Shown piece after piece: positions 19,174-33,148 of a DNA stretch of 33,863 bases. Made by a program: the position numbers and the translations under genes. The stretch comes from Minisyncoccota bacterium (GTDB lineage: Bacteria; Patescibacteriota; Minisyncoccia; Phycocordibacterales; UBA9973): positions 1-33,863 of the forward strand of contig JAGOQQ010000001.1 in NCBI GenBank assembly GCA_017991395.1, given 5' to 3'. Below the pieces are notes generated by a model. The model did no database searches and was not told where the DNA came from. It saw nothing but the letters and a program-made list of their open reading frames with translations. Every line of letters begins with the position of its first letter. Positions within the stretch are counted from its first letter, which is position 1.

Positions 19174-19707
19174 TTACAGACCTATATCATCGGTCATTTT
19201 TTCTATCAACTCTTTTTCATCTCTAATCCTCCTTAATATAAAAATCTGTTTATTCTCACGATGTTCCAATACTTTCTTAATAATGTCGTCAGAAGAATAG
19301 CTCCAAATATATTTAATTAAATTCCAATCAAAAAATGTCTTTTGACCTTCTGGCATGTCTGAACGCTCTTTTCCATAATTTTTTATCACTCTCTTTAACA
19401 ATCTATAGTAAATAATCCTTTTTGGAAAATCAAAAAAAATTATAATATCTGAAGCATTAAGTCTTATATCAAAAGTTTTCGATTTCCAAAAATGACCATC
19501 GATTATCCATTCATCCTTTTGCAAAATATCATCTTGATGTTTAATAAATACATCTTGTTTTATTCCACCCTTTTCTTTCCAAAAAATCTTATCAAGATGA
19601 TAGACTGGAATACCTAATAACTTGCCAAGGTAATTTGACATGGTTGTTTTTCCAGAAGCTGGACAGCCTATTATTGATATTTTTTTAGCTAATTTCACTT
19701 GAGCCAT
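19174..19707 (-). CDS. P-loop kinase of the FlaR / adenylate-kinase-like family
   Basis: A 177-residue P-loop NTPase resembling the family annotated as DNA topology modulation protein FlaR, which is related to small nucleotide kinases. Walker A is GCPASGKTT (14-22), followed by the family pattern VYHLDKIFW, EWIIDGHFW, RLNASDIIIFFDFPKR, RLLKRVIKNYGKERSDMPEG and IKYIWSY. The substrate is unknown. The start chosen is ATG 19707 (MAQVKLAKKISIIG), which lies inside the copied tRNA-Thr end (CAATGGCT); GGAAG lies 10 nt upstream. The gene is clearly more AT-rich than its neighbours and is bracketed by two copies of the tRNA-linked element, which suggests it arrived as cargo. Its stop codon is 9 bp from copy B. 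Confidence 0.85.
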   Translation of the reverse strand: MAQVKLAKKISIIGCPASGKTTMSNYLGKLLGIPVYHLDKIFWKEKGGIKQDVFIKHQDDILQKDEWIIDGHFWKSKTFDIRLNASDIIIFFDFPKRIIYYRLLKRVIKNYGKERSDMPEGQKTFFDWNLIKYIWSYSSDDIIKKVLEHRENKQIFILRRIRDEKELIEKMTDDIGL

Positions 19708-19823
19708 TGTCGGGAATCTTCCATTACATGGACAGTATACCTTTTCGAAACATTCGGACAAAGTCCTTATGTTTAACGAAAAGCTTTTCGATTCCCGAAC
19801 ACAAGCAAAGCAGTTTGCTTGTT
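19701..19823 (-). repeat. tRNA-linked structured element, Thr copy A
   Basis: On the plus strand this holds, in order: a closing stem TCGGGAATC (19710-19718) pairing with GATTCCCGA (19790-19798), which copies the tRNA-Thr T-arm; hairpin TCCA-TTACA-TGGA (19720-19732); a long hairpin 19741-19783 with stems CTTTTCG, AAACAT and GGAC and an unpaired AA; and hairpin ACAAGCAAA-GCAG-TTTGCTTGT (19801-19822). The tRNA-Asp copy (21167-21279) has the same layout, loops and AA bulge with different, compensating stem sequences. The end of the element supplies the start codon of the kinase gene. Confidence 0.85.
19734..19761 (-). promoter_or_regulatory. Promoter-like pair inside element copy A
   Basis: On the minus strand TTGTCC (19756-19761) and TATACT (19734-19739) are separated by 16 bp, with a predicted start about 20 nt before the kinase ATG. 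The tRNA-Asp copy of the element lacks the TATACT. Confidence 0.5.
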
Positions 19824-19882
19824 CAATGGCTCCCATTTAAAAAGAAGCGACATGCGCGCTTCTTTTTAAATGGGAGCCATTG
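19824..19882 (-). repeat. 26-bp inverted repeat that includes the tRNA-Thr 3' end
   Basis: Perfect 26-bp arms (19824-19849 and 19857-19882) with a 7-nt loop. The tRNA-side arm contains CAATGGCT, the 3' acceptor strand and discriminator base of tRNA-Thr, so the second arm is antisense to the tRNA end. The inner AAGAAGCG/CGCTTCTT with A and T runs also resembles a terminator. Confidence 0.85.
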
Positions 19883-19947
19883 TCGGGAATCGAACCCGAG
19901 ACCTCATTCTTACCATGAATGCGCTCTACCGACTGAGCTACAACGGC
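19875..19947 (-). tRNA. tRNA-Thr (anticodon GGT)
   Basis: A 73-nt cloverleaf on the minus strand. The acceptor GCCGTTG pairs with CAATGGC, the D-arm is AGCTCAGTCGGTAGAGC, the anticodon loop ATGGTAA gives GGT, and the T-arm is TCGGG-TTCGATT-CCCGA. The discriminator base is T and CCA is not encoded (CCC follows). The 3' end is part of an inverted repeat and is copied twice downstream. Confidence 0.96.
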
Positions 19948-20004
19948 TTATGTGTTTCCTGTAAACAACTCTTATTGTATATCATCAAACCCAAATTTTT
20001 CCAA

Positions 20005-21103: not shown

Positions 21104-21166
21104 GAACGGGACTTGGTCACAAGTTACTAAGTCTACTCACACACTTCGTGTATTGTGGATTGATTG
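21104..21166 (-). other. Short cargo-like segment between two tRNA-Asp T-arm copies
   Basis: GAACGGGACTT, the plus-strand image of the tRNA-Asp T-arm/acceptor junction, occurs at 21104-21114, again at 21167-21177, and in the tRNA at 21337-21347. The 52 bp between the first two copies contain small inverted repeats (ACAC/GTGT) and no frame. The position matches that of the kinase at the Thr locus. Confidence 0.5.
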
Positions 21167-21279
21167 GAACGGGACTTTGCTATTACATAGCCAGGTGCTT
21201 TTCAATTTATTCAAAGCGGAGCTTTTCATAAATAATGAAAAGCCTTTCAAGTCCCGCACGGAGCCAAGCAGTTGGCTCC
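21167..21279 (-). repeat. tRNA-linked structured element, Asp copy
   Basis: On the plus strand: closing stem CGGGACTT (21170-21177) with AAGTCCCG (21249-21256), copying the tRNA-Asp T-arm; hairpin GCTA-TTACA-TAGC (21179-21191); a long hairpin 21197-21243 with stems GCTTTTCA, ATTTAT and AAGC, triloop GGA and an unpaired AA; and hairpin GGAGCCAA-GCAG-TTGGCTCC (21260-21279). The order, loops, AA bulge and linker (CTTTC) are the same as at tRNA-Thr, while stem sequences differ with pairing kept. Confidence 0.88.
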
Positions 21280-21339
21280 TTCACTGCGCCATAATAAAAA
21301 ACTCAGCATATGCTGAGTTTTTTATTATGGCGCAGTGAA
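21280..21339 (-). repeat. 60-bp perfect palindrome that includes the tRNA-Asp 3' end
   Basis: Two 30-bp arms with no spacer, centred on CATATG. The tRNA-side arm contains the tRNA-Asp acceptor 3' strand TTCACTGC, the discriminator G and the encoded CCA. The core AAAAAACTCAGC/GCTGAGTTTTTT is a terminator-like hairpin. Confidence 0.9.
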
Positions 21340-21404
21340 CGGGACTTGAACCCGCAACCTCTCGCGTGACAGGCGAGTGCTCTAACCAGTTGAGCTACCA
21401 CTGC
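21328..21404 (-). tRNA. tRNA-Asp (anticodon GTC), CCA encoded
   Basis: A cloverleaf on the minus strand. The acceptor GCAGTGG pairs with TCACTGC (one G-U), the D-arm is AGCTCAACTGGTTAGAGC, the anticodon arm is CTCGC-CTGTCAC-GCGAG giving GTC, and the T-arm is GCGGG-TTCAAGT-CCCGT. The discriminator is G and CCA is encoded, unlike the other three tRNAs here. The 5' end (17 nt) recurs three times upstream, and the 3' end recurs downstream. Confidence 0.96.
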
Positions 21405-21405
21405 A

Positions 21406-21720
21406 TTTTTTGTTTTTTTCAACTTCTACTAAACAGTGTAAATTTTCTTTTCTTACACTCGCCTTGGGCGAGGCTCACACATAGTCTAATTTAGTTGAGC
21501 TACCACTGCATTTTTTGTTTTTTTCAACTTCTACTAAACAGTGTAAATTTTCTTTTCTTACACTCGCCTTGGGCGAGGCTCACACATAGTCTAATTTAGT
21601 TGAGCTACCACTGCATTTTTTGTTTTTTTCAACTTCTACTAAACAGTGTAAATTTTCTTTTCTTACACTCGCCTTGGGCGAGGCTCACACATAGTCTAAT
21701 TTAGTTGAGCTACCACTGCA
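21406..21720. repeat. Three identical 105-bp tandem repeats carrying the tRNA-Asp 5' end
   Basis: Units 21406-21510, 21511-21615 and 21616-21720 are identical. On the minus strand each begins TGCAGTGGTAGCTCAACT, the first 17 nt of tRNA-Asp plus one preceding base. The remaining 87 bp contain hairpins CTCGCC-CAA-GGCGAG and GTGTAA/TTACAC, and CAGTG/CACTG can close the unit into a tRNA-sized fold of about 77 nt. There is no frame and there are no variable spacers. Confidence 0.9.
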
Positions 21721-21768
21721 AACTATTTTCAATTACACGATATAAACCTACTGCCCTTTCGAGCATTG

Positions 21769-28234: not shown

Positions 28235-29371
28235 TTATCTCACCACTGCACCAAATGTCGCCTTTGTTTCTTCTTCGAGTTTTTTGTGGAGGTCGTTCAC
28301 TTCTTCATCCGTAAGTGTTCGTTCGAGTGAGCGGTAGGTGATTCGGTACGCATAGCTTTTTTTCCCTTCGCCAAACTTAGCTGCGTTTTCATATTCATCA
28401 ATGAGTGCCATCTCTTCTGCCATGTCACCAATCACATCTCGCACAAGATCAAAATAGTTGTTTGGTGCAAATCCTGCCTTATCGACAAGAAAAGAAATAT
28501 CTCGAACAATCGCTGGGTACTTGCTCACCTCTTTAAATTTTTGCCCGAGAGTAAGCTGTTTCTTCACTCGTTCATCATCAGACCAAAGTAGTCTAATGTC
28601 TGGCAAATCCATACTCGTCATCGCCCAACGTTCAATTCCTGAACCAAACGCCCAGCCGTTGTAGACAGTCGAATCAACACCAAGCATTTCAAGCACACTT
28701 GGCTTCACAACACCACTACCTAGAATTTCAAGCCAGTCATCACCCTTTTTGATTTCAATTTCTGTTGAGGGATGAGTGTATGGAAATGTTTCTTCCATAA
28801 ATTTGTATTCAACATCGCCAAAAATAGCTTTCACAATCTTTGTCTCAACATCTTTCAAGGTATCGAGATCAATCACCTTCACTTCTTTTGGTGCAATATA
28901 GAGTGCATCAATCTGATGAAAGACATTCATGTGTTTTCGGTCGATTTCATCTTTTCGATATACTTTTCCATAACAAAATACTCCGAGTGGTTCTTTGTTT
29001 TCAAGTTTCTTTTTTATTTCTTCTTGCTTGAAATAGTAATACCACATCACTGTTGTCTGTGTGCGAAGAATGTGTGTGTCATCTGCATAGTACGTATCAG
29101 ATTTACTTCGTGCAGGATGATCAGCTGGAAAATCAAAAAGATCAAACGCGATTTCTGTCGACATAATTTCAGGAACGTGAATAATATCAAATGTCTTAAA
29201 ATCATCGATTGTGGTGATACGATGTACCAATTCTTTGATAGGACTTCCTTCTGTGCGAGAAAGGTCGGGCATATTCAAATATCGCTTCATTCGTACTGCT
29301 TCAGCATCTGTCCGAACATCGAGCTCTTTAATGAGTGCCATTTCTTCAGTTGTATCAATTTTTATTTCCAT
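28235..29371 (-). CDS. pheS: Single-chain phenylalanyl-tRNA synthetase, mitochondrial type
   Basis: A 378-residue PheRS. Residues 20-275 are the class II alpha catalytic core (EIAFDLFDFPADHPARSKSD, ILRTQTTVMWYYYF, GKVYRKDEIDRKHMNVFHQ, FGSGIERWAMTSMDLPDIR). Residues 284-378 are an FDX-ACB anticodon-binding domain (KYPAIVRDISFLV; SYAYRITYRSLERTL), which in ordinary bacteria is at the C-terminus of the separate beta chain. The N-terminal coiled coil of bacterial PheS is missing. This layout is that of the monomeric mitochondrial enzyme (FARS2), and the RITYR-ERTL block is very like it. No pheT is in the window, and the B3/B4 editing domain is absent. The gene overlaps an upstream 64-residue frame by 17 bp. 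Confidence 0.93.
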   Translation of the reverse strand: MEIKIDTTEEMALIKELDVRTDAEAVRMKRYLNMPDLSRTEGSPIKELVHRITTIDDFKTFDIIHVPEIMSTEIAFDLFDFPADHPARSKSDTYYADDTHILRTQTTVMWYYYFKQEEIKKKLENKEPLGVFCYGKVYRKDEIDRKHMNVFHQIDALYIAPKEVKVIDLDTLKDVETKIVKAIFGDVEYKFMEETFPYTHPSTEIEIKKGDDWLEILGSGVVKPSVLEMLGVDSTVYNGWAFGSGIERWAMTSMDLPDIRLLWSDDERVKKQLTLGQKFKEVSKYPAIVRDISFLVDKAGFAPNNYFDLVRDVIGDMAEEMALIDEYENAAKFGEGKKSYAYRITYRSLERTLTDEEVNDLHKKLEEETKATFGAVVR

Positions 29372-29811: not shown

Positions 29812-30085
29812 AAAGTAGGTTATACCTAGAACGCAAAGCGTAGAGCGTAAAAACAAGATTCCGTGTCATCCTGAACTTGTTTCAGGATCTCGAAAGTTTT
29901 TTTAATATGATCAATTCTTGATTCATTCTTACCCCTCCGCCCTTCGGGCACCTTTTCTTACAGAAACTGTACACCTTTTGGATATATTTCTTCACAAGTT
30001 CGAAATCTATCACAAAAGGTCTTGCGCTTGGGTCTCTATCCCAAGCTCACCTCGCGGGGAGGATTGAATTTCTACTTCCTACTAT
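29812..30085. repeat. Repeat-rich intergenic region
   Basis: About 270 bp without a gene, made of several repeat families. 29828-29850 holds GTAGAGCGT words, also found near 25590-25615. 29866-29890 is a REP-like hairpin (ATCCTGAA-CTTGT-TTCAGGAT). 29929-29953 is the second exact copy of the 25-bp GC-rich repeat. 29970-30060 holds ACCTTTTG/CAAAAGGT and GCTTGGG/CCCAAGC inverted repeats. 30070-30098 is a TAGTAAGTA-type run. Confidence 0.7.
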
Positions 30086-33082
30086 CTACTTACTACTCAC
30101 TGCCCCATACACTCTCTTCGCCAGTTCACAATGTTCACACACACTCGCTCCGCTACCTAATGGCTTGAAGTTGCACGGACGGTCCACCCATTCTCCCGAA
30201 GAAAGAAGTCGCACATAATCCGAAATATCACGCACAAGCAAGTCTATTTCTTCATTTCCAACATGAGTACTGTACACGCCATTTTTATCATCCAAATCTG
30301 CTTCAAGAAAAAGAAGTCTTGAACTATCTACCACCTTGCCCTTTTCAGCTCCATACACAAGATATGAATACATCGCGAGCTGGCGCATAAAGCTTGAGAG
30401 TCTGCCTTCATCATCCCGTTTCTCAATCATTCCGCTAGTTTTACTTGTTCCAGTTTTAAAATCTGTCACCACAAGTCTGCCGTCTGGAAATCGCTCTGTG
30501 AGGTCAATTTTCCCATACATGGTGAGATCAGGAAATCGTGAGTCACGATACGAAAGTGAACGCTCTGTTGTGCGGTCTTTGGCGAGATGCGGATAATACT
30601 TTTCCATCCATACTTCGACAGCTTCCATTCCCTCTCGGGTAAGTCGAGTGAGTGCACTTGTATCTGTCACACCTTCGTATTCAAGTTCTTCGCTGATTGT
30701 TTTTTTAATAAATGCGCTTGTTGGTTTTTTGTCTTCAAGAAGAATTTTTTCAATTGTACTGTGTACTGCGCTACCAAATTTTAGGCTTTCGGTTTTGAGA
30801 TCAGGAAGTTTGAGCAAATTTCTAAAATACCATTTCCATGGACATTCGAAAAAGTTGTTCAGTAGCGTCACAGACACCTTTGCATCAGTATATATTTCAC
30901 TCACATTTTCTTTGAGTATTACAAGTGCGTCACTTTCTGGCTTCTCTTCCATCGACACATACACACGCGGATCATCAGCCAAAAGTTCGTTTTGTGTATG
31001 AGTCGCGTCCTTTTTATCAAAAATATCTTGCGGGATTTCTTGCAAAATTTCTGCAAGCTCTAGTGTTCCACCTGTATGAGAAGTTGTTGCATGCGAAATA
31101 ATACAATGCTTTTTTGCACGAGTGATTGCCACATACAGTTCACGCTTTGCAACTGCTTTATCTTTTTGTTCAACTTTTGCCTGAAGTGATTCTGGAAGTA
31201 CAAACATTGCTTTCTTACTCGCCATGAGCACGCTTTCATTCATATGACCAATCCACACATGTTCAAACTCAAGACCTTTTGAGCCGTGAAGTGTCATTAC
31301 CGACACACCCTTATCACCGCCAAGTGTAGCCATTGAAAGTGAGTGATTGTACTGTTCGAGTCTGTTAAGGTAATTCAAAAAATCTGCCAATGTTGCTTTT
31401 TTATTTTTTTCAGAAAACTCAGTTGCAAGATGAATACTTGTCCGTACAATCTCCACGCGCAAAACAAGCTCTTCATGCCCAACCGCTTTTTCCACCAAAA
31501 GTTCATTTCCTATTTTGTGAATAATTTCAATCAGTGAATGAGTATGTGAATAGGTGATCCACAAAGAAAGTGTTTTGCCCCATTTTGAAATTGTATTTGC
31601 ATCATCAAAAAGACTTCCACTTTTGCCGTGCCCTACGAGTGTATCCACGGACAATTTTCTTGTGTCAGTCTCATGCAAAAAAGTATGAGCGTCCAAAATT
31701 GGAATATTTGAAGTACGATCCAAAATTGTCTGTGAAAGTGCAATGGTATCAAATGGATTTACCATCACCGAAAGAACATTTCTAAATGACTGCGTTTCGT
31801 GCGCATCAAAAAACGACACACCATGAGTTGATCTGACTGGGATACCCAAATTTTGAAGTGTTGAGAGCGCAGAAAGTACATGACGATTTTTGGGCACAAG
31901 CAGCGCACACTCTTCTGGTGCGATACCATTTTCTATCTGTTGTTTAAAATACAATCCTGCGCCAATGATTTCATCCCGAGGATACACATATTCAAAAAGT
32001 GACACAGGATGAGTCTCCTCACGATTACTGTTTAGTTTTTCATGAGTGAGGCTACTTTTCAAAAGAGTGTCCGCAAGTGAAAGGATGGGTGCTGTAGAGC
32101 GATAATTTTCTGTGAGTGTTATCAAATGCGCTTTACCAAACGCAGTTTTGAATTCTTCAAAATACGAAAGCGACGCTCCTCCAAATCCATAGATAAGCTG
32201 TCGATCATCTCCCACCACAAAAATATTTGGCTTCTCGGTGCTTTTCCAGACAGCTTGAAGAAACGCATTTTGAACTCCTGAAGAATCTTGGTGTTCATCT
32301 ACCAGTACATACAAATATGCCTCTCGAAGATCAGCACACACACCATCATTTTCCTCCACAAGTTTTACGGCGTACTCAAGTACATCATCGTAGTCAACAA
32401 GATCATTCTCTTTTTTGTACGATTCATACAGTTCATAAAAAATGGCGACTTCTTTTGTGCGAGAAAGTGACTCAATTTTCTTTTGAATTTCCTTCTTGAG
32501 ATTTCCTTTGGATTCTCCGCGTGTTGATATGCTGTCTGGATCATTTTTCAATCGATCAATATCTCGATCAATTTCGACCATAAAATCAAAATGAGAAAGT
32601 CGCTCACGTTTCAATAGAGACACCAAGTTTTTTAAATCATTAAAATAGAGTGCGGGATTGCCTCGTGAATGAAGATGTTTCCAGTCTCGAGCATGGAGCA
32701 ACTGGTCCACCACAAGTACTGCATCCTCTTCTTTCAGAAGTTTTGGCGGCATCTCAAATTCGAGAAGTTCGTAGTATTTTTCAACAAGTGTATTCGCAAA
32801 ACTGTGAAATGTCTGGATTCCTACAGATCGCGCATCTTCACCAATATATTTATGGAGGCGCTCACGCATTGCCTTTACCCCTGCTCGCGTAAATGTGAGG
32901 CACAAAATCCCATCACCAGAAGTGTCTGTCTCCTGCAAAATCCGGGCAATTCGGAGAGTCAAAATCTGGGTCTTTCCTGTACCTGGACCGGCTATGACCA
33001 TGACTGGACCTTCTATGGTGTCCACTGCCTCCTTTTGGCGAAGATTGAGACCTTTGTATGCTTCCTGAAATAGATTACTCAT
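30086..33082 (-). CDS. UvrD/AddA-like helicase with C-terminal Fe-S PD-(D/E)XK nuclease
   Basis: A 998-residue SF1A DNA helicase fused to a nuclease. Helicase motifs: Walker A GPGTGKT (32-38), Ia LCLTFTRAGVKAMRERL, II LVDEHQD, III VVGDDRQLIYGFGGA, IV TLTENYRS, V MTLHGSKGLEFEHVWIGH and VI YVAITRAKKH. The C-terminal domain has GKIDLTERFPDG and VVTDFKTG of a RecB/AddB-type nuclease. The cysteines in FECPWKWYF, PCNFKPLG and VCEHCELAKRVY have the spacing of the AddB Fe-S staple. It probably resects or processes DNA ends as one polypeptide instead of AddAB or RecBCD. ATG 33082 (MSNLFQEAYKGLNLRQKEAV) is chosen. TATACT (33090-33095) lies 7 nt upstream, which fits a leaderless start. Confidence 0.93.
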   Translation of the reverse strand: MSNLFQEAYKGLNLRQKEAVDTIEGPVMVIAGPGTGKTQILTLRIARILQETDTSGDGILCLTFTRAGVKAMRERLHKYIGEDARSVGIQTFHSFANTLVEKYYELLEFEMPPKLLKEEDAVLVVDQLLHARDWKHLHSRGNPALYFNDLKNLVSLLKRERLSHFDFMVEIDRDIDRLKNDPDSISTRGESKGNLKKEIQKKIESLSRTKEVAIFYELYESYKKENDLVDYDDVLEYAVKLVEENDGVCADLREAYLYVLVDEHQDSSGVQNAFLQAVWKSTEKPNIFVVGDDRQLIYGFGGASLSYFEEFKTAFGKAHLITLTENYRSTAPILSLADTLLKSSLTHEKLNSNREETHPVSLFEYVYPRDEIIGAGLYFKQQIENGIAPEECALLVPKNRHVLSALSTLQNLGIPVRSTHGVSFFDAHETQSFRNVLSVMVNPFDTIALSQTILDRTSNIPILDAHTFLHETDTRKLSVDTLVGHGKSGSLFDDANTISKWGKTLSLWITYSHTHSLIEIIHKIGNELLVEKAVGHEELVLRVEIVRTSIHLATEFSEKNKKATLADFLNYLNRLEQYNHSLSMATLGGDKGVSVMTLHGSKGLEFEHVWIGHMNESVLMASKKAMFVLPESLQAKVEQKDKAVAKRELYVAITRAKKHCIISHATTSHTGGTLELAEILQEIPQDIFDKKDATHTQNELLADDPRVYVSMEEKPESDALVILKENVSEIYTDAKVSVTLLNNFFECPWKWYFRNLLKLPDLKTESLKFGSAVHSTIEKILLEDKKPTSAFIKKTISEELEYEGVTDTSALTRLTREGMEAVEVWMEKYYPHLAKDRTTERSLSYRDSRFPDLTMYGKIDLTERFPDGRLVVTDFKTGTSKTSGMIEKRDDEGRLSSFMRQLAMYSYLVYGAEKGKVVDSSRLLFLEADLDDKNGVYSTHVGNEEIDLLVRDISDYVRLLSSGEWVDRPCNFKPLGSGASVCEHCELAKRVYGAVSSK

Positions 33083-33120
33083 ACAAAGTAGTATACCGCT
33101 TTCTTTTGAAGTCACGAAGG

Positions 33121-33148
33121 TTGACAATTTCCCAGATTTTGATACTAT
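33121..33148 (+). promoter_or_regulatory. Promoter of the 69-residue gene
   Basis: TTGACA (33121-33126) and TACTAT (33143-33148) are separated by 16 bp, about 28 bp before the ATG at 33177. Confidence 0.65.

Follow-up and report, generated by a model that had tools for sequence, protein, structure and literature searches.

Three identical repeats, each opening with the 5′ end of a tRNA gene, stand directly upstream of that gene in a 33,863-nt stretch of a Minisyncoccota bacterium contig (JAGOQQ010000001.1; hereafter the window), which raises the question of what such copies are and how they arose. On the minus strand, the gene order is tRNA-fMet, tRNA-Met, three 105-bp units and tRNA-Asp, the last being the intact tRNA-Asp(GTC) gene at 21328-21404, identified by ARAGORN and Rfam and present as a single copy in the genome (one match in G000). 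The tandem array at 21388-21720 was obtained by Tandem Repeats Finder with a period of 105, 3.2 copies, 100% matches, no indels and a score of 666, and a repeat search returned three 123-nt copies with 100% identity. No further occurrence of the 105-bp unit was found in the 763-kb genome. The three identical tandem repeats and their opening with 17 nt of the tRNA-Asp 5′ end had been recognised in the initial annotation, and both observations were borne out: the first base of every unit is nt 1 of tRNA-Asp, and nt 1-17 (GCAGTGGTAGCTCAACT) are carried in each. The span previously given was 21389-21720; the bounds of the units according to the repeat analysis are 21719-21615 (distal copy), 21614-21510 (middle copy) and 21509-21405 (proximal copy), all on the minus strand, while 21388-21404 is the genuine tRNA-Asp and not part of a unit.

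The sequence following the 17 nt had been described as unrelated to the tRNA, which is correct for the AT-rich leader, the sole part of the unit unrelated to tRNA-Asp, but not for the remainder. Nucleotides 1-17 (21493-21509 in the proximal unit) are followed by an altered D-loop (AAATTAGACTATGTGT), by GAGC and CTCGCC, which correspond to the D-stem 3′ strand and the anticodon-stem 5′ strand of the tRNA, respectively, and by a short loop, AGGCGAGTG (21456-21464 in the proximal unit) and the AT-rich leader, which in the proximal unit adjoins the tRNA gene as its new leader. AGGCGAGTG is an inverted copy of tRNA-Asp's own CACTCGCCT, and an inverted copy as long was obtained in none of 200 shuffles. 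The end copies are parts of cassettes with a conserved anatomy, not loose copies. The proposed closing of each unit into a tRNA-sized fold received little support, as the fold (77 nt, -20.3 kcal/mol) had a weak z-score of -2.4 and its acceptor-closing pairing was absent in the eight relatives compared. A processed RNA of about 77 nt from each unit was rejected, the predicted closing stem not being conserved, and the D-stem of the 5′ unit was invariant and thus uninformative for covariation. A scan for sigma-70-like promoters produced no match within the array.

The units of the array may be compared with a wider set of cassettes, about 70-220 bp overall, which have a common design: an intact gene, a new leader or terminator, an inverted copy of the gene end, a structured core (in the 3′ forms), and a displaced direct copy of the gene end. 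In the 3′ forms (about 110-220 bp), the tRNA is succeeded by a terminator-like hairpin, its last ca. 19 nt in inverted orientation, the core, and finally those ca. 19 nt again as a direct copy; a hairpin with AAACTGCTTT often interrupts the inverted stretch. The copies of 3′ ends which the initial annotation had placed on the other side of tRNA-Asp were confirmed as a 60-bp palindrome and two occurrences of CAAGTCCCGTTC (21104 and 21167), and they belong to such a 3′ cassette, also on the minus strand. The perfect palindrome (21280-21339, z -12.9) comprises the tRNA-Asp 3′ end, a symmetric terminator-like hairpin and the inverted acceptor 3′ strand as the left arm, which continues at 21246-21279 with a hairpin (GGAGCCAACTGCTTGGCTCC, 21260-21279) and an inverted T-arm copy (GCGGGACTTGAA, 21246-21257). 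The A-type core with its closing arms (21169-21257) matched covariance model R1 with 77.9 bits and an E-value of 3.7e-17, being itself among the 12 building sequences of R1. Right arm 1 (21167-21178) is a direct T-arm copy (AAAGTCCCGTTC) that has lost its acceptor part, and the tail of a second core (TAGACTTAGTAACTTGTGACC) with right arm 2 (CCAAGTCCCGTTC) follows at 21104-21135, with a weak R2 match across 21105-21258 (E-value 0.006).

The tRNA-Asp 3′ cassette is decayed, whereas that of tRNA-Thr(GGT) (gene at 19871-19948, by tRNA gene search; cassette at 19701-19870, minus strand) is complete and of A-type, with 90.9 bits and an E-value of 2.1e-20 against R1, of which it is also a building sequence. 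Its parts are a symmetric terminator (19836-19870), left arm (19824-19834), hairpin (19802-19823), core (19710-19798) and right arm (GATTCCCGACAATGGCTC, 19701-19718). Another A-type module (29944-30031, minus strand; R1 E-value 5e-8) lies within an interspersed palindromic repeat, on the 3′ side of the gene for a UvrD/PcrA-like helicase (30086-33127). The same strand of the window also codes, at 28235-29371, for a protein matching PheS-type phenylalanyl-tRNA synthetase models together with the C-terminal part of PheT, in a mitochondrial-like arrangement or as a PheS-related ligase.

In the genome of origin, with 38 tRNAs, 5′ cassettes were identified at Val, Phe and Asp. Cassettes of the 3′ form accompany Gly, Val, Ile, Thr, Gln (a tandem pair) and Arg; Lys, Trp and Leu have more degenerate ones. 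About one third of the tRNAs examined carry a cassette. The idea of tRNA-Asp as a hotspot for copying of its own ends was accordingly abandoned, similar cassettes being present in most genomes of the order as well. Among the early loci, a downstream copy of the own 3′ end was present in 49 of 345 tRNA contexts and a 5′ copy in 32 of 345 (55 of 631 with later loci added). The end copies follow the local gene, and the 3′ cores are common to different genes and genomes, core types A to E recurring at different tRNAs. A covariance model of one 3′-cassette core (R2) matched 102 of 119 genomes of the order, with up to 30 copies per genome, and in a sample of 239 genomes of the phylum it matched 27; in the genome of origin, all nine listed matches lie downstream of a tRNA, 37-213 nt away and on its strand. 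An exact core pattern was found in at least 117 stretches of named genomes, mainly of Nomurabacteria, Kaiserbacteria, Adlerbacteria and other Patescibacteria, with many in Elusimicrobia, and 62 of the 83 matches inspected were just 3′ of a tRNA, the others following tmRNA, topA or rpsI. D-type cassettes with the 3′ end of tmRNA as arms were observed after this gene (L172, L254), and the same D-type core was repeatedly present in Elusimicrobium (L238-L240, L245, L260), far from Patescibacteria, which may reflect either horizontal spread or a deeper ancestry. In one locus (L095:1220-1504, genome G042), an ORF for a GIY-YIG endonuclease separates tRNA-Asp from the displaced 3′ end, and the last codons of this ORF overlap the tail of a B-type core, which resembles GIY-YIG C-terminal coding sequence.

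The cores are structured. In two alignments with hand-specified helices (A1 and A2), 90% of the cells were paired, and changes on both sides of a pair numbered 48 in A1 (15.3 in shuffled alignments) and 43 in A2 (14.6), values reached in none of 500 shuffles each, with far lower values in slid-helix controls. Covariation was also found in helices outside the target-derived arms, and the closing stem of the 3′-form core is made of the inverted and the displaced copy. In two topA cassettes (G028, G129), a composite core of 191-194 nt is predicted to form one multi-branch fold with A- and D-type parts both inside, on which basis the core types may all be shortened forms of a single larger fold. 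In Rfam, only tRNA and tmRNA were matched, with nothing convincing for the cores or the 5′ unit, and a self-cleaving ribozyme or a group I/II intron was rejected in the absence of a match even at relaxed threshold. Since the 5′ units are without the 3′ cores, they are grouped with the 3′ forms by shared anatomy only; with the same layout, the two appear to be one class.

The direction of insertion was read from relatives, for which 109 tRNA-Asp loci were surveyed alongside a DNA search. Nine further genomes, of genera g12, g16 and g21, proved to have a single 5′ unit, each time upstream of tRNA-Asp, and among 147 genomes of the family a strict 5′ pattern matched eight, at the tRNA-Asp locus only. 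The copied 5′ end was that of the genome's own acceptor strand in eight of the nine genomes (permutation p 0.0002, with relatedness ignored). Within genus g21, the unit heads were 88% identical and the linkers 66%, compared to 59% when shuffled. The three identical copies in the window together with the single unit in relatives suggest recent tandem amplification, as had originally been proposed from the identity of the repeats, and the divergence of the relatives' linkers to near-random identity agrees with this. The leader of relatives with an empty site was aligned to five g21 genomes that carry the unit: the best z was 8.4-10.5 for sequence beyond the displaced copy and 0.0-3.2 for the leader adjoining the tRNA. 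As the ancestral leader is outside the displaced copy, the 5′ unit is best interpreted from these alignments as an insertion between the ancestral leader with the tRNA 5′ end and the present tRNA-Asp. In the window, nt 1-17 of the distal unit (21703-21719, minus strand) would then be the displaced original tRNA 5′ end, in an insertion order taken from the relatives, and the leader outside the array, from tRNA-Met to the distal copy (21720-21767, minus strand), is the proposed ancestral tRNA-Asp leader by analogy with the five g21 genomes.

A significant inverted copy of the own functional tRNA, of up to 14 nt, was present in 14 of 42 5′ units including that of the window, and absent or short in the 28 other contexts. 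In G000, G073 and G011, it was closer to the functional than to the displaced copy. Tandem forms were found elsewhere at L080, L050, L083 and L278. L080 (G046) has a different 5′ type upstream of both tRNA-Thr genes, tRNA-Met and tRNA-Asp, in which TAGCTGTTTTGGTAG replaces TAGCTCAGTTGGTAGAGC, and the 5′ units of its tRNA-Thr genes are tandemly doubled with 36- and 38-nt periods. L278 (bacterium DBS2-1.bin102) contains three tandem D-type cores ca. 140 nt apart, downstream of tRNA-Arg. Displaced 5′ copies at L026, L029, L032, L058, L191, L192 and L285 often have small perfect D-arm hairpins inserted. Upstream of tRNA-Phe in L147, a second partial tRNA-Phe (nt 1-40) runs into an A-type module in which the anticodon/variable region is repeated in inverted orientation, which amounts to an insertion inside the anticodon arm of the displaced copy.

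Cassettes behind a protein-coding gene have the same order. In G043, G028 and G129, representing two families, the sequence behind a complete topA consists of a terminator-like hairpin, an inverted arm, a core and another topA end, and the functional and displaced ends begin at the same codon (KTIPERCSN); in G039 and G034, the topA sites are empty. The two ends are almost identical in G129, and in G043 they code for nearly the same residues and are different at most synonymous sites. As the differences are mostly synonymous, both G043 ends evolved as coding sequence before they were joined, and their divergence is suggestive of import. The topA layout is that of an integration with a replaced gene end.

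On balance, we consider the array to be probably, though far from certainly, three tandem copies of the 5′ form of a gene-less integrative tRNA-end cassette. Such a cassette would insert at one end of a tRNA gene, or in some cases of tmRNA, topA or rpsI, bringing with it a fresh copy of the gene end and, as the 5′ form, a new leader or, as the 3′ form, a new terminator. The gene would thereby stay intact, and its original end would be pushed outward as the displaced partial copy. The hallmark of integrative elements, i.e. a duplicated gene end with the gene intact and the original end displaced, is present. Integration would be by a recombination activity acting in trans, and one unit may have become three by recombination between the 105-bp repeats or by repeated insertion. 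Neither an integrase nor another mobility gene is contained in the 105-bp unit or in the 3′ cassettes, a search for a larger autonomous form of the cassette returned none, and no recombinase linked to the cassettes was found; the genome's single tyrosine recombinase, which is not nearby, is a candidate driver. The GIY-YIG genes of this genome are not flanked by tRNA copies, on which ground a homing endonuclease of this type was rejected as the driver. Carriage by phages was also rejected, with one viral contig having a core and none a 5′ unit, as was a nested or permuted tRNA with the outer 5′ half pairing to the outer 3′ half, most tRNAs carrying one kind of copy only. The patchy presence and the diverged topA ends are suggestive of movement between genomes, with neither excision nor transfer seen. 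A more speculative and rather improbable extension is that the cassettes are RNA-bearing mobile elements, in which the inverted arm would be a guide and the core, through a strand complementary to a particular gene end, would direct insertion beside it and rewrite the arms from the new target without an element-encoded protein.

A resident regulatory RNA, the main rival, is in our view possible but doubtful: the 5′ units and 3′ cassettes would be cis-acting, tRNA-like decoys in the precursor that tune tRNA supply, where the copied strand competes for pairing with the other half of the tRNA or binds a processing enzyme, and three units would be three decoys. The conserved head and unconserved linker of the unit, the tracking of the own acceptor strand by the copies and the covarying core helices are all as a decoy would have them, and alignment folding was stronger on the tRNA strand in four of the five core types, which is a weak hint only, since the comparison is biased by structures predicted on the scored strand. 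The scattered presence, with the strict pattern in so few family genomes, is however difficult to reconcile with a resident function, as are the ancestral leader outside the unit, the same cores behind protein genes such as topA, the terminator-like hairpin between the tRNA and the 3′ cassette, and the lack of conservation in the closing stem predicted for the 5′ unit.

Plain replication errors, with tandem slippage and foldback template switching at hairpins and no dedicated element, are improbable for the class. The 60-bp palindrome around the terminator is what foldback would leave, and the unit in G097 repeats its own leader exactly, but cores common to different tRNAs, tmRNA, protein genes and genera are left unexplained, as are their covariation, the fixed topA entry codon and the diverged topA ends, and it is the shared covarying cores that disfavour this explanation. 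For the array alone, from one unit to three, such errors are likely. The initial annotation had named an assembly artefact as the alternative to genuine amplification, the cell then holding one or another number of units; a 333-bp array could exceed the length of short reads, yet tandem units were also assembled in L080 and L278 and nine relatives genuinely have the single-unit version; this is the least probable explanation and a very remote one.

The favoured integrative cassette has partial counterparts among known systems. Phages, ICEs and tycheposons use the ends of tRNA genes as integration sites and leave the gene restored, and the cassettes resemble them in the whole gene, displaced original end, direct gene-end repeat, tandem accretion and use of conserved protein gene 3′ ends, but are about 70-220 bp long, gene-less and without an integrase, and they have the inverted gene-end copy, a conserved multi-helix core, and insertions at 5′ ends too. 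The 178-bp repeats (rtT) situated downstream of tyrT in Escherichia coli contain the 3′ end of the tRNA; they are likewise tandem repeats each opening with a piece of the neighbouring tRNA, whereas the window array carries the 5′ end upstream of tRNA-Asp and has single-unit relatives and a genome-wide sister class. Like MITEs, REP and other palindromic repeats, the cassettes are short, gene-less, hairpin-rich and present in many copies; the inverted ends of those repeats belong to the element, whereas the inverted arms of the cassettes are the local gene end and change with the target gene. In integron attC cassettes and CTX-type folded single-strand att sites, an imperfect stem rebuilds a duplex similar to a recombination site, and an imperfect stem of that kind and tandem cassettes are shared here, in contrast to the gene-specific arms, the core of several helices and the lack of a dedicated integrase among the genes found. 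TIGR arrays, which have dual repeats with box C/D motifs, varying spacers and 36-nt RNAs beside a tas gene, are similar in their tandem, in that case RNA-coding, repeats and in their CPR bacterial hosts (PMC12045711), and differ from the three identical 105-bp copies at a tRNA, which are without variable spacers (PMC12045711).

No description of these elements was found by title or abstract in the open literature searched, outside which most subscription papers and preprints lie, and the class is apparently undescribed; its newness is in the anatomy, a gene-less element with ends that match the resident gene, and not in a proven mechanism. Partial tRNAs and false ORFs arise from the cassettes, and genome annotation is affected by them. 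The finding also raises the question of what copies the end of the target gene into the element; if the guide reading were true, one core family could spread to the end of any tRNA, tmRNA or conserved protein gene. In this order of minimal bacteria, most genomes have such cassettes, which occur in Elusimicrobia as well and are located at the most conserved genes. As the cassettes keep the tRNA genes intact and add promoter-side or terminator-side sequence, they may shape tRNA expression in these organisms.
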